Source: Flavimaribacter sediminis (GTDB lineage Bacteria; Pseudomonadota; Alphaproteobacteria; Rhizobiales; Rhizobiaceae). From it: DNA of 64,000 nucleotides. Positions 15,140-64,000 of the stretch are shown piece by piece. Position 1 is the first letter of the stretch; each line of letters opens with the position of its first letter. Below the pieces are notes generated by a model. That model did not search any database. It was not told the origin of the DNA and was given only the letters and a program-made list of their open reading frames with translations. Where the stretch lies: NCBI RefSeq assembly GCF_019492055.1, contig NZ_JAICBX010000007.1:1-64000 (forward strand). The letters run 5' to 3'. The position numbers were made by a program, and so were the translations under genes.

Positions 15140-15922
15140 CTACCTTTTGGGCGCAACGAGCGAGAAGGCGGCTCCTTGCGGATCCATGCAGTTGACGATC
15201 CACGAGCCGCCCGGAACCTCCATCGGTCCGTTCAGGATCGCTCCGCCGCCCGCGGTGACGCGATCTGCAGCGGCGTCCAGCGTATCGACGCAGAAATAGT
15301 AGCCCCATGCCGGCGCCGGCATGTCCGGCGTCTTCGTCATCATGCCGCCAATGTCTTTTCCGTCATGGGCAAAAAGCTGGTAGACGCCCATCTCGCCCAT
15401 GTCCATCGCCTCGCCCTTCGTCCAGCCGAACATTGTCGCATAGAAGTCGAACGCCTCCGGGCCGTCGCCGGCGTAAAGCTCGGTCCATCCGACAGCGCCC
15501 TGCTCCGTCTCTTTCGGCATATCGGGAAGCGGTCCTTCCGGCATGTTCGGCCTGAAGAGATAGATTACGGCGCCGTGCGGGTCGGCGACCATGGCGAAGC
15601 GGCCGATATCGGGAATATCCGTTCCGGGCATGTGGATGGTTCCGCCATTATCCGCGAAGAGCGCCGCCTTGGCGTCGACGTCGTCGACGGCGACATAGCC
15701 GAACCACGCCGGCCGGGCGCCGCCGTCCCGCATTTCCTGCGTCAATCCCAGCATGCCGGCGGTCGGCATTTCGTAGCCGGGTATGGAGAACGTCGTATAG
15801 TCGCCGCCAGTCGGCGTCTGCCCCATCGGCTTCGCCTGCCAGCCGATGACGTCCGTGTAGAAACGCGTCGCCGCCTCGGTATTCGTCGTCATCAACTCGT
15901 ACCAGACGAATGATCCCTCCAT
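15140..15922 (-). CDS. VOC-family protein with two glyoxalase-like domains
   Basis: 260-aa cytosolic protein with two tandem vicinal-oxygen-chelate halves, about residues 5-125 (FVWYELMTTNTEAATRFYTDVIGW) and 140-258 (VGWTELYAGDGPEAFDFYATMFGW). This resembles the glyoxalase/bleomycin-resistance or hydroxylase-like proteins of the family. The reaction cannot be told. The ATG is preceded by ggagag. Its promoter region contains a perfect palindrome across the probable -10 box, which suggests repression. Convergent with the F420 operon. Confidence 0.85.
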   Translation of the reverse strand: MEGSFVWYELMTTNTEAATRFYTDVIGWQAKPMGQTPTGGDYTTFSIPGYEMPTAGMLGLTQEMRDGGARPAWFGYVAVDDVDAKAALFADNGGTIHMPGTDIPDIGRFAMVADPHGAVIYLFRPNMPEGPLPDMPKETEQGAVGWTELYAGDGPEAFDFYATMFGWTKGEAMDMGEMGVYQLFAHDGKDIGGMMTKTPDMPAPAWGYYFCVDTLDAAADRVTAGGGAILNGPMEVPGGSWIVNCMDPQGAAFSLVAPKR

Positions 15923-44016: not shown

Positions 44017-45198
44017 GTGACGATTTTTCGAAATAGGGCCAATCCGGGTCTATTGTTTATGTTGCTGAGCCTGCTGCTCCTGGCGACAGGACCGGCCCAG
44101 GCCGCCGGACCTACGATCGTGGTGGATGTCGAAAGCGGCCGGGTGCTGGAACACAACGACGCTTTCCAGCGGTGGTATCCGGCGTCGCTGACAAAATTGA
44201 TGACGGCTTATGTCGTGTTTCGGGCGGTGCGCTCCGGTCAGGTCAGCATGGATTCGCTCGTCACGATCAGCGCCAACGCGGCCAAGGCGCCGCCCAGCAA
44301 AATGTATTACAAGCCGGGTTCGCAGCTTACCCTCGACAACGCCTTGAAGATCATTCTTGTGAAATCGGCCAATGACGTGTCGGCGGCGATCGCCGAGTCC
44401 GTCGCCGGATCGCAGCAGGCCTTTGTCGATCGAATGAACGCCGAAGCCCGTCGTCTTGGCCTCATGGATACGCGCTTCATCAATCCGCACGGTTTGCCGG
44501 GAAAGGGCCAAAGCACGACTGCGCGCGACATGGCGGTGCTTGGGATGGCCATACATAACGAGTTTCCGCAATTTGCTCCCTATTTCAACCTGGAGGCGAT
44601 CTCCACAGGAAAACGGACCTATGAGAATTACAATATTCTCATCGGTCGGTTTCGCGGCGCCAACGGCATGAAAACCGGCTTCATCTGCTCCTCCGGCTTC
44701 AATCAGGTTTCGTCTGCGACCCGCAATGGACGCACTGTGGTGTCGGTCGTTCTCGGAGCAAAGGATCAGGAAGAAAGAGCCAGTGAATCGGCTCGGTTGC
44801 TGCAAAAGGGGCTGACCGCATCGAAAATCGGCGCTCCAAAGCTGGCTTCCCTGAAACCCTACGGCGCCAACCGGCTTCAAACGGTCGATATCAGACCGCA
44901 GATCTGTTCGGCGGAAGCGCGCAAGAACCGCAATCGGGTTACCGATGAGAGCGGCAATCTCAGCGTCACGTCCGCCTATATTCATCCGATGCGCCGACCA
45001 GCGCGCGCGGTGTCCGTTGGCCTCGTCGGCAGCGTCAATCCGGCGCTCGCCGGGAGAAGGATTCCGGTGCCGAAGCCCCGGCCAGCCCAGATTGGCCGTG
45101 GTGTCGTCGCAATCACGGCAGGCGCCTCCGCTGCGCCTGTATCGACCGGGCAGCCGGCGCCGGGTATGCCGGTGCCCCGGCCGAAGCCGCGGCGATAG
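44017..45198 (+). CDS. D-alanyl-D-alanine carboxypeptidase with Pro/Arg-rich tail
   Basis: 393-aa periplasmic PBP5/6-like enzyme trimming stem peptides. It has a signal peptide (about 1-30, ending AQAA), active-site Ser57 and Lys60 (SLTK), SAN motif at 117-119 and KTG at 219-221. The usual C-terminal beta domain and membrane helix are replaced by a Pro/Arg-rich tail with IPVPKPRPAQ and MPVPRPKPRR. The GTG at 44017 has AGAGG six bases before it. Precedes the COG0523 GTPase by 17 bp. Confidence 0.9.
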   Translation: MTIFRNRANPGLLFMLLSLLLLATGPAQAAGPTIVVDVESGRVLEHNDAFQRWYPASLTKLMTAYVVFRAVRSGQVSMDSLVTISANAAKAPPSKMYYKPGSQLTLDNALKIILVKSANDVSAAIAESVAGSQQAFVDRMNAEARRLGLMDTRFINPHGLPGKGQSTTARDMAVLGMAIHNEFPQFAPYFNLEAISTGKRTYENYNILIGRFRGANGMKTGFICSSGFNQVSSATRNGRTVVSVVLGAKDQEERASESARLLQKGLTASKIGAPKLASLKPYGANRLQTVDIRPQICSAEARKNRNRVTDESGNLSVTSAYIHPMRRPARAVSVGLVGSVNPALAGRRIPVPKPRPAQIGRGVVAITAGASAAPVSTGQPAPGMPVPRPKPRR

Positions 45199-61486: not shown

Positions 61487-62260
61487 ATGCACACTGATAT
61501 TGTTGAACTGAGACAGTTTTACCAGTCCCATCTTGGTCGTTTGGCGCGCAATGCAATTACCATGGCTCTTTCCACGCTTTGGCCACCGCTCCCTGACGAG
61601 CGCCTCATGGGGCTTGGTTACACGACGCCCTATCTCGACCGGTTCGGTTCGGACGCCGAACGCAGGCTGGCCTTCATGCCCGCTGGCCAGGGAGCGGTTC
61701 GCTGGCCATCCCAAAAGGCGTGCGCCACGGCGCTGGTCTTCGACGAGGAATTGCCATTGCCGGATTCCGTCCTCGATCGAATCCTGATGGTCCACGCGCT
61801 GGAATTCGCTGAAAGCCCGCGCGAAACTTTGATGGAGGCCTGGCGGGTGCTGTCGCCGGGCGGGCGATTGGTGATCGTGGCGCCGAACCGAAGAGGCGTA
61901 TGGGCGCGCATGGAACACACGCCTTTTGGATCCGGAACGCCATATTCGCGCAATCAGCTGACGCGGCTTCTGCGCGACGCGAATTTCACGCCGGAAGCCT
62001 ATTCCGAAGCGCTGATGTTCCCGCCGTCGCGCTGGCGCTCGATACTGAGCGTCACACGTACCCTTGAGCGGGCCGGCCGGCGCTATTGGCCCTTTCTGAG
62101 CGGCGTGGTGATCATCGAGGCGCAGAAGCGGTTGTATCAGGGTCTGCCTGTCGCAGAACGCAGCTCGCGGCGCGTTTTCGTTCCGGTGCTTGCGCCGCAG
62201 GGCGTGTCGCGGGTTCAGCGGGTCACACCAAAACCGGAAGGCAACGCCCACTCAGTTTGA
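61487..62260 (+). CDS. Class I SAM-dependent methyltransferase
   Basis: 257-aa Rossmann-fold methyltransferase-like protein. It has LMGLGYTTPYLDRFG at motif I, LPLPDSVLDRILMVHALEFAE after strand 4, and AWRVLSPGGRLVIVAPN at strand 5, typical of methyltransferase-11. Substrate unknown. It is divergent from gloB, an arrangement I recall in other rhizobia, and overlaps the protease gene end by nine bases on the opposite strand. Confidence 0.85.
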   Translation: MHTDIVELRQFYQSHLGRLARNAITMALSTLWPPLPDERLMGLGYTTPYLDRFGSDAERRLAFMPAGQGAVRWPSQKACATALVFDEELPLPDSVLDRILMVHALEFAESPRETLMEAWRVLSPGGRLVIVAPNRRGVWARMEHTPFGSGTPYSRNQLTRLLRDANFTPEAYSEALMFPPSRWRSILSVTRTLERAGRRYWPFLSGVVIIEAQKRLYQGLPVAERSSRRVFVPVLAPQGVSRVQRVTPKPEGNAHSV

Positions 62261-63832
62261 AGGCGCGTCCACAAGCTTGCGGACCTCGCTTGCCGGGACG
62301 CCGAGATTGGATCCGCCGTATTCCGGCAGGATCGCCGAATTGACGGCGACCACTTCGCCATTGATATCGAGAACAGGTCCACCACTGCCGCCCCGCGTCG
62401 TTTCCGCGTCGTAGGCGATGATCCCCTCGGAAACTCTGGCGACGATGCCGCGGCTGGCGAGCGGTTCGATATGGCCGCTTTCCGCAAGATGCGCCGCCAC
62501 GTCCCAGAAGCCGGTTTCTCCGAGTTTCTTCAGGTCTTCAACGAACCGGCGGCCCGCCTGGACGAGCAGGGCCTTGAGACCAGTCGGATATCCCATCAGG
62601 ATTATGGCGTCGCCCGGTATCGCTTCCCGTTCGGACAGGACGAGGCCATTCGTTTCCCGCGACAGTCCGGGGGTTTCCAGCAGAGCGATGTCCGCGGTTT
62701 CGCTGACACGGACGACCGCGAGATCTATTGCATCGGAAACGCCGGGCGCATAGGCCAGAAACCGGATCATCACCGGCTCCAGGCCGCTTGCACCGAGTGT
62801 CTCGATATTCGCGTCGTTTTGCCATGGAACGCCAACATGTCGATTGGTGACGACGAGGTTGTCGCTCCCGATAAAAAAGCCGGAGCCGGTAAATTGACGT
62901 TCGGCGACCGGGCCGTCGCCTTCCAATGACAGCAATGGCAATCCATTCGGGAGAGTAAGCGGCGCGCCATCGGGGCCGATCACCTGCCGCAGCATGCGTC
63001 CATCGGACGTATTGCGAAATCCGTAGGCGCCCTGGATGAACACCACTGCGGAGCGGGCCGCGGCTATGATTTCGGTGCTCGCTGTCGAACGGCGTTCGAT
63101 TTCGGAGACCCGCTCGGAAGTGACGCCGATGCGGCTTTCGAAGTCACTCTGCAGTGTTTCCAGGTCTTCCGGAGTTATGGCCTCCTGACGAGAGCGGGCG
63201 AGCACACGGGAGAAATGTTCGAGTTCCGCCACACCGCTTTCAATCTGTCGCCGCTGCAATTCGTTCATGCGGTATTGCTGGAAGACGAGAAAGCCGAGCG
63301 CAGCGATGCTTATGAGCATTGCCGCCCGGAACAGCACCGTCGTATCGCGCGTCAGCCGGCGCACAGTCTGGCTGCAGGATCGCATGAGCCTTACCGCCAC
63401 AGGTCGCCGACTGTTGCGGAAGTAGGCGGCCGTGTCGCTGAAGATGCTGGCGACGCTGTCATGCATCTTGCGGCTGTTCGCATAGAGGTAATAGCGCGAC
63501 ATCGGTCCGTTCTCGCCGAACTCGATCATGTCGTGGTGTTCTAGCAACTGGGCGCTGGCCGGCTGTCCGTTGATCCACAAAGGACGGCCGTCAATGGCCT
63601 GTATTGAATAATGATTGCTGTCCGATCTCTTGAGGCGCGCAACAGGCTCGGGCGTTCTGCGGTCCTTGTCCGAGGCCATGCAGATGCGGCCGTCGGCGCG
63701 TAGTCCGAGTTCGATTTCCGGTTGCCAAAGCCACGACACCGAACCGCGCGAGGGGCCGGTCAGGTGCTCAAGAGCCGCCACCGCCTGCGTGTCTTCCAGA
63801 TCGATCGTTCCTTTCGACGCCTCGGCTTCCAT
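62252..63832 (-). CDS. FHA-like, membrane-anchored trypsin-type serine protease
   Basis: 526-aa protein. The cytoplasmic N-terminus (about 30-120) resembles an FHA fold (EIELGLRADGRICM, then LWINGQPASAQLLEHHDMIEFG). One membrane helix lies at about 167-184, a coiled coil at about 188-250, then a trypsin-like periplasmic domain with the full triad His332 (NRHVG), Asp370 (DLAVVRV) and Ser483 (GGSGGPV). No PDZ domain is seen, unlike DegP. The FHA match is degenerate. It diverges from a partial gene at the window edge. Confidence 0.78.
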   Translation of the reverse strand: MEAEASKGTIDLEDTQAVAALEHLTGPSRGSVSWLWQPEIELGLRADGRICMASDKDRRTPEPVARLKRSDSNHYSIQAIDGRPLWINGQPASAQLLEHHDMIEFGENGPMSRYYLYANSRKMHDSVASIFSDTAAYFRNSRRPVAVRLMRSCSQTVRRLTRDTTVLFRAAMLISIAALGFLVFQQYRMNELQRRQIESGVAELEHFSRVLARSRQEAITPEDLETLQSDFESRIGVTSERVSEIERRSTASTEIIAAARSAVVFIQGAYGFRNTSDGRMLRQVIGPDGAPLTLPNGLPLLSLEGDGPVAERQFTGSGFFIGSDNLVVTNRHVGVPWQNDANIETLGASGLEPVMIRFLAYAPGVSDAIDLAVVRVSETADIALLETPGLSRETNGLVLSEREAIPGDAIILMGYPTGLKALLVQAGRRFVEDLKKLGETGFWDVAAHLAESGHIEPLASRGIVARVSEGIIAYDAETTRGGSGGPVLDINGEVVAVNSAILPEYGGSNLGVPASEVRKLVDAPSN

Positions 63833-63907
63833 CGCTTTTCCTGCTAGAGCGGAATGTCATAGATGTAGTGTATCGGGACGATCGTGCAAACTGCCGGGAG
63901 ACAGTCG

Positions 63908-64000
63908 TTGATCGAATACTGGCGCAAGGCTCTGGAAGTGTTCGCCGGCTGGCGCCAGGCCATTGTCGTTGATCTGGTGCGCCAACTCCGCTGGTCGTTC
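63908..64000 (+). CDS. Partial gene running off the window
   Basis: A TTG at 63908 with GGGAG seven bases before it opens a frame that stays open to the end (MIEYWRKALEVFAGWRQAIV..., 31 codons). It diverges from the FHA-like protease. Too short to assign a family; an aromatic, amphipathic N-terminus is all that can be seen. Confidence 0.45.
   Translation, partial: MIEYWRKALEVFAGWRQAIVVDLVRQLRWSF

Follow-up and report, generated by a model that had tools for sequence, protein, structure and literature searches.

At the end of the window analyzed here, a stretch of 64,000 nucleotides from Flavimaribacter sediminis, one gene joins an FHA-like domain through a membrane helix to a trypsin-like protease, and a second gene starts in the opposite direction a few dozen bases away. 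What would an FHA-like domain on one side of the membrane do for a protease on the other, and is the gene at the window edge its partner? The answer to which we give about an even chance is that the protein is an HtrA-like protease of the envelope, anchored in the membrane, whose FHA-like domain serves for docking in the cytosol independently of phosphorylation, and that it works with the MFS protein encoded next to it. The features of the locus are collected in Table 1.

Table 1. Features at the end of the window, with positions, strand and the evidence for each
Feature	Position	Strand	Evidence and remarks
Protease gene, 526 aa: cytosolic FHA-like domain (predicted side), membrane helix, helical linker, predicted periplasmic trypsin-like domain	62252..63832	(-)	ORF and 13 homologs
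FHA-fold domain (predicted), residues 19-120	63473..63778	(-)	Profile-profile comparison and shuffles, fold comparison, residue table, dN/dS 0.06
Juxtamembrane arginine-rich stretch, residues 121-165	63338..63472	(-)	Charge counts
Membrane helix (single), residues 166-187	63272..63337	(-)	Hydropathy, 7 rows and 14 rows
Helical linker / possible coiled coil, residues 188-260	63053..63271	(-)	Weak periodicity; dN/dS 0.03; helix in a very low-confidence model
Conserved lead-in before the catalytic domain, residues 261-310	62903..63052	(-)	Mean pairwise identity 56%
Trypsin/HtrA-like catalytic domain, residues 311-526, without PDZ	62255..62902	(-)	Pfam Trypsin_2 2.7e-17; PDB sequence matches to DegQ/HtrA
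Triad His332	62837..62839	(-)	14/14 rows
Triad Asp381	62690..62692	(-)	14/14 rows
Triad Ser483 (GGSGGP)	62384..62386	(-)	14/14 rows
Short intergenic stretch between the divergent protease and MFS genes	63833..63883 (to 63907 if TTG start)		Sequence, ORFs
BT1-family MFS gene, 5' end, 557 aa	63884..64000	(+)	Runs to 65557 of the contig; Pfam BT1 7.9e-12; adjacency elsewhere

Protein layout and the fold of the N-terminal domain

The reading frame of the protease is real. Thirteen homologs share its layout and align to it over nearly the full length with 40-90% identity, forming together with the window protein the family alignment of 14 rows used below. The nearest relative found, in a Pararhizobium MAG (L007), has a protease 90% identical to that of the window. 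Comparison of these two genes yields a dN/dS of 0.12 for the whole protease and of 0.06, 0.03 and 0.15 for the FHA part, the linker and the protease domain, respectively; purifying selection is thus stronger on the FHA part and the linker than on the protease domain. The slow evolution of the FHA part relative to the protease domain indicates that it probably does something. The anatomy laid out in Table 1 is near certain: the domain evidence bears out the order of FHA-like domain, helix and trypsin domain in one gene that the preliminary description had proposed, and all 13 homologs keep it.

Pfam matches Trypsin_2 over residues 316-497 of the window protein (2.7e-17) and nothing at its N-terminus. 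With H332, D381 and S483 invariant in 14 of 14 rows, the triad is intact as described earlier, and the lack of a PDZ domain likewise holds up, since Pfam returns no PDZ match in the window protein and the protein stops with its catalytic domain. Sequence matches of this domain in the PDB are to DegQ/HtrA chains. At the family level, the TIGR02037 model (HtrA/DegP/DegS) scores 44.9 bits against a cut-off of 416.2, and NF033740 (MarP) gives a weak local match of 35.6 bits, below its cut-off of 250 bits.

A single clear hydrophobic helix is present per protein, both in an alignment of 7 rows and in that of 14. Throughout the 14 rows, the 32 residues that precede the helix have a net charge of +4 to +8 and the 30 that follow it one of -2 to +1, and cysteine is absent beyond residue 169 of each protein. 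On account of this charge balance and cysteine pattern, we strongly infer a topology with the FHA-like domain in the cytosol and the protease in the periplasm, a prediction in line with the one-helix, inside-out arrangement put forward before. The coiled coil that was described after the helix fares less evenly: a helical linker stands, whereas its coiled-coil character is only plausible, with a weak periodicity that was reached by 29 of 1000 shuffles for residues 188-218, by 173 for residues 222-255 and by 73 for the whole stretch 188-255.

The window protein has no match to Pfam FHA (PF00498) at E<=1 and falls short of the curated cut-off; seven of the 14 family members do match at E<=1, the best at 3.7e-4. 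No PDB sequence matches the profile of the N-terminal domain at E<=5, so the fold needed other support. Profile-profile comparison with hhalign aligned residues 18-120 to a 37-row FHA profile with a score of 49.1 (probability 95.9%). Controls remained far below this value, at no more than 17.8 for 200 column shuffles and 17.3 for the reversed alignment, and the same FHA profile scored 13.4 against the linker and 14.6 against the catalytic part. Removal of the two rows that had first matched Pfam FHA still left a score of 46.8.

Structure comparison points in the same direction. The model of the N-terminal domain (residues 14-123, built from two sequences) is of modest confidence, with a mean pLDDT of 59 and a pTM of 0.52. 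In Foldseek it reached a best E of 1.3e-3, with no match at E<=0.001, and most of the best 50 of 328 rows bear the name of an FHA domain; the remaining rows among these 50 are proteins or complexes that contain one. A second aligner, VIA, gave a highest Z score of 9.0 (89 residues, rmsd 3.0) and 21 chains at Z>=8, again FHA-bearing rows; it re-aligns Foldseek matches only, and Z values of 7-8 are usual even where a model has no clear match, so that 9.0 is slightly above this range. The fold matches include YscD (Foldseek) and CT664 (Foldseek and VIA). A full-length model, likewise from two sequences, had a pLDDT of 31.9 and was set aside for fold claims. Combined, the profile comparison and the model settle the predicted FHA fold of this domain well, though not its details, and sustain the FHA-like assignment made at first.

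Phosphothreonine reading

The preliminary description took the domain for a phospho-peptide reader. On the cytosolic side, the FHA-like domain would then bind a protein that carries phosphothreonine and so switch on the periplasmic protease, a design with which the FHA fold and the predicted inside/outside topology agree. The ligand-binding positions speak against it. We take S-R-x-H and S-x-N-G to be the phosphothreonine-binding motifs of FHA domains, and both are also visible in the 37 rows of the FHA profile. Positions 61-64, which align with S-R-x-H, show Ser once, Arg once, a mixed third residue and V, I or L as the fourth, never His, across the 14 family rows. Those aligned with S-x-N-G contain a mixture with Ser once at 81, then G, S or D at 82, followed by R, Q, C, H or a gap at 83 (13 letters and one gap, never Asn) and mostly P at 84, never Gly. 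The invariant residues of the FHA scaffold are N88-G89, L97, D101 and I103-E104-F105. The Gly-Arg with which the third strand of FHA domains ends falls in the stretch 42-50, where the alignment is uncertain, and the loss of the phosphothreonine motif is judged from this same alignment.

In the source genome (5.69 Mb, 99% complete), the search with PF00069, the only kinase family searched genome-wide, found no match at E<=0.001; the same search matches 11 of 14 control genomes, eight of them over the cut-off. No FHA domain in the genome scores over its cut-off, in a search that also misses the divergent window protein. A Ser/Thr kinase or phosphatase, which the earlier account had proposed to look for beside the gene, was not matched among the scanned neighbors of the protease genes; a PAS histidine kinase lies two genes downstream of the protease in G347 (scanned) and in G254 (by similarity). 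On the motif loss and the missing PF00069 matches, the phospho-reader was set aside as unsupported, and we regard signaling by this route as very unlikely. The FHA-like domain would then no longer read phosphothreonine, as far as the alignment allows this to be judged.

Two observations concern signaling genes near other family members. In the genus of G347 and G254, a YjdM/PhnA-domain gene comes next after that of the protease, with the PAS histidine kinase behind it (L017:4459-6857 and L018:10049-12413), and a signaling link is possible there. In G139, contig C50 (of which L016 is a part) carries three FHA domains that score above the Pfam cut-off, starting at 44970, 47314 and 62505, about 20-38 kb from the G139 homolog.

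The divergent MFS neighbor

The preliminary description also saw a possible partner in the unassigned gene at the window edge. Followed to its end at contig position 65557, this gene encodes a BT1-family MFS protein of 557 aa, which has no sequence relative in the PDB at E<=0.1. Its start lies at 63884 or, from a reading of the sequence, at a TTG at 63908, and the two genes thus lie 51-75 bases apart (63833-63907). A purine-rich stretch, also read by eye, precedes both starts (AGGAAAA and GGGAGA).

The pairing recurs in other genomes. Protease and MFS genes are divergent in the window and in L007; in Ruegeria, an MFS relative (62% identity) abuts the protease gene convergently, and in G465 one of 70% follows it in tandem after about 16 bp. 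Adjacency is thus seen in three of 13 lineages (three of 11 genera, the window and L007 being counted once), each time in another orientation. Farther apart, G117 has an MFS relative of 67% on the same contig, about 14 kb from the protease gene, and G466 one of 69% on a different contig. G467 and G570 have only 42% relatives, and the carriers G139, G254, G347, G499, G742 and G761 have none at E<=1e-20. Since the MFS gene is distant in sequence, remote or not found in most carriers, the pair is not obligate. The chance of three adjacencies among the five lineages with both genes is about 1e-9 if the lineages are independent; shared ancestry or joint transfer weakens this independence, yet would itself mean that the pair has been kept together. 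No other neighbor recurs next to the protease beyond one genus at the thresholds used across the 14 protease loci (L009 on one side only), and in G761 the protease gene adjoins an HtrA-PDZ gene instead. With these adjacencies, the suggested partnership gains support, and the MFS protein is the likely partner of the protease.

We hypothesize that the protein is a single-pass serine protease of the inner membrane, with its FHA-fold domain in the cytosol and its HtrA-like domain in the periplasm. The FHA-like domain would be a module for docking or assembly that needs no phosphorylation, a role proposed for PrgH/YscD of the T3SS inner ring, and its partner would be the membrane protein of the BT1-type MFS encoded next door; protease and permease-like protein would then make up one envelope-proteostasis unit. 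A cytosolic contact, acting via the helix and the helical linker, would position the protease or switch it, and the protease would trim damaged or regulatory envelope proteins. Partnership and mechanism are what we infer from the locus; the manner of coupling is a guess. A more specific version, which we hold to be improbable, has a phosphate-blind FHA domain grip cytosolic loops of the permease and thereby couple the state of the transporter inside to proteolysis outside, with HtrA or FtsH substituting elsewhere beside the same MFS family.

The protein may also be an ordinary membrane-anchored housekeeping protease of the HtrA/DegS kind, in which the FHA-like domain has only a structural role as a foot, such as forming rings or clusters, and the MFS neighbor is incidental. 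The scarcity of nearby MFS genes in most carriers fits this possibility, as does the structural role that degenerate FHA domains can take, proposed for PrgH in an excerpt of PMC3635987. The three different arrangements of the adjacent pair, the low chance expectation under independence and the fact that the three MFS proteins group together, with moderate support, argue against it, and we consider it possible but rather doubtful.

The docking reading also draws on the MFS family at large. In the class sample, 17 of 385 genomes, the source genome included, encode the MFS protein at E<=1e-60, and its neighbors were examined in 10 of the 16 others. The MFS gene lies by an HtrA-PDZ gene in G147, with a 91-aa ORF called between them, by ftsH in G238, and in G182 12 bp from an HtrA-type gene that is cut by the contig end and shares 46% identity with the HtrA-PDZ gene of G761. 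At least seven of 15 MFS loci, with the window genus counted once, have an FHA-linked, HtrA or FtsH protease gene as immediate or next neighbor, the remaining eight having been scanned in part. In a midpoint-rooted tree, one group unites the MFS protein of the window genus with those of Ruegeria, G465 and G466 (support 91/89, below the starred level), and another those of G147, G182, G238 and G246 (98/98); G117, in which both genes are present, falls outside both groups. A single clade of the MFS-adjacent proteases was rejected, as it requires at least two changes on starred branches.

Other genes of these neighborhoods are worth recording. Usp genes occur within a few kb in G147, G238, G466 and Ruegeria. 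On a plasmid of Sulfitobacter SK012 (L104:3301-6204), a thioredoxin-domain gene and ftsH are followed by a broken MFS copy (residues 23-90, 73.5%), a set reminiscent of stress-tolerance islands. The pair of G465 (L049:960-13409) lies among genes for a trypsin-like protease that carries a peptidoglycan-binding domain, for a formate/nitrite transporter and for a caspase-like peptidase, and together with these it stands after an ABC/HlyD gene set.

Known systems and distribution

DegS has a single membrane anchor, and the window protease shares with the HtrA/DegP/DegQ/DegS family (TIGR02037) a trypsin-like domain with its triad and local similarity to DegQ/HtrA chains. It differs from that family in the lack of a PDZ domain and in its large cytosolic FHA-like domain and helical linker. 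MarP combines a membrane-anchored trypsin-like domain with a multi-helix N-terminus, unlike the one helix of the window protein, which also misses the cut-off of NF033740. The SctD proteins of type III secretion, PrgH, MxiG and YscD, have one membrane helix, as the window protease does. They resemble it further in their periplasmic part and in a cytosolic FHA fold with poorly conserved phosphothreonine residues (excerpt of PMC3635987); the periplasmic part of the window protein, a linker and a Trypsin_2 protease, has no ring-building modules. According to the same excerpt, mutating these residues in PrgH left secretion unaffected, and deleting the FHA domain affected it (PMC3635987). Closest in domain order is NP_811686.1 of Bacteroides thetaiotaomicron, which an excerpt of PMC2605481 presents with FHA N-terminal to a trypsin domain, although with two FHA domains.

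No secretion-system gene was matched among the five window neighbors scanned. Judged by the features compared, the protein falls outside the HtrA, MarP and SctD families, and its motif positions place it outside the phosphothreonine-binding FHA class. By analogy, and partly on general knowledge of these systems, its way of working would come closest to that of a membrane-tethered protease of the DegS type, equipped with an SctD-like foot. Known control of HtrA-like envelope proteases is mostly periplasmic, via PDZ domains; if the docking reading is true, a cytosolic control domain would be added to it, and the protein would join the T3SS ring proteins as a second example of a phosphorylation-independent FHA fold in a membrane-spanning protein. 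The reading also names a testable partner, the BT1-type MFS family, which in several genomes stands beside quality-control proteases. This family is apparently unstudied in bacteria, the literature found being mostly on parasites and plants.

Homologs of the same architecture were sought elsewhere and found, the 13 described above, scattered over the Alphaproteobacteria. Near-full-length homologs occur in five of 385 genomes of the class sample and in eight of 397 of the order sample, each count including the source genome; in the phylum sample (398 genomes), the N-terminal part reached a convincing score in the source genome only. In these three samples, the best three to six candidates per genome were scored, and weak relatives may therefore be missed. 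The 61 near relatives, again with the source genome among them, hold the protease in that genome and in one of two congeners, the other congener being 79% complete. In a second order, two of 15 genomes carry it, both of the same genus. Among 17 plasmid records, most of the query is present in a single one, from Ruegeria (44% over 96%). No relative turned up when viral contigs were scanned with profiles, and a 20-bit match in G1062 of the phylum sample, to the helix/linker stretch and with an internal stop, was taken as chance. From these low counts, the distribution is sporadic and, as far as sampled, alphaproteobacterial.

Sporadic occurrence would also suit a conflict or defense peptidase. 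As described in an excerpt of PMC7159879, NTP-dependent conflict systems, mostly of Alphaproteobacteria, employ trypsin-like enzymes, several of them membrane-fused, that act with NucA endonucleases. The second trypsin-like gene and the caspase-like gene near the pair of G465 would be in keeping with such a role. The neighbors scanned, which make up part of each neighborhood, contain no NucA, STAND or VMAP-type domain, and a peptidase of this kind is hardly to be expected here.

Within the open-licence literature, as far as the papers listed and their excerpts go, the mention of the Bacteroides FHA-FHA-trypsin protein was the only published description found. The annotated start of the Ruegeria homolog (L010:14938-16530) shows how members could escape notice: RefSeq places it at 15391, which removes the FHA-like domain, and both frame and homology reach back to 14938. 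Late start calls of this type may hide the protease family.
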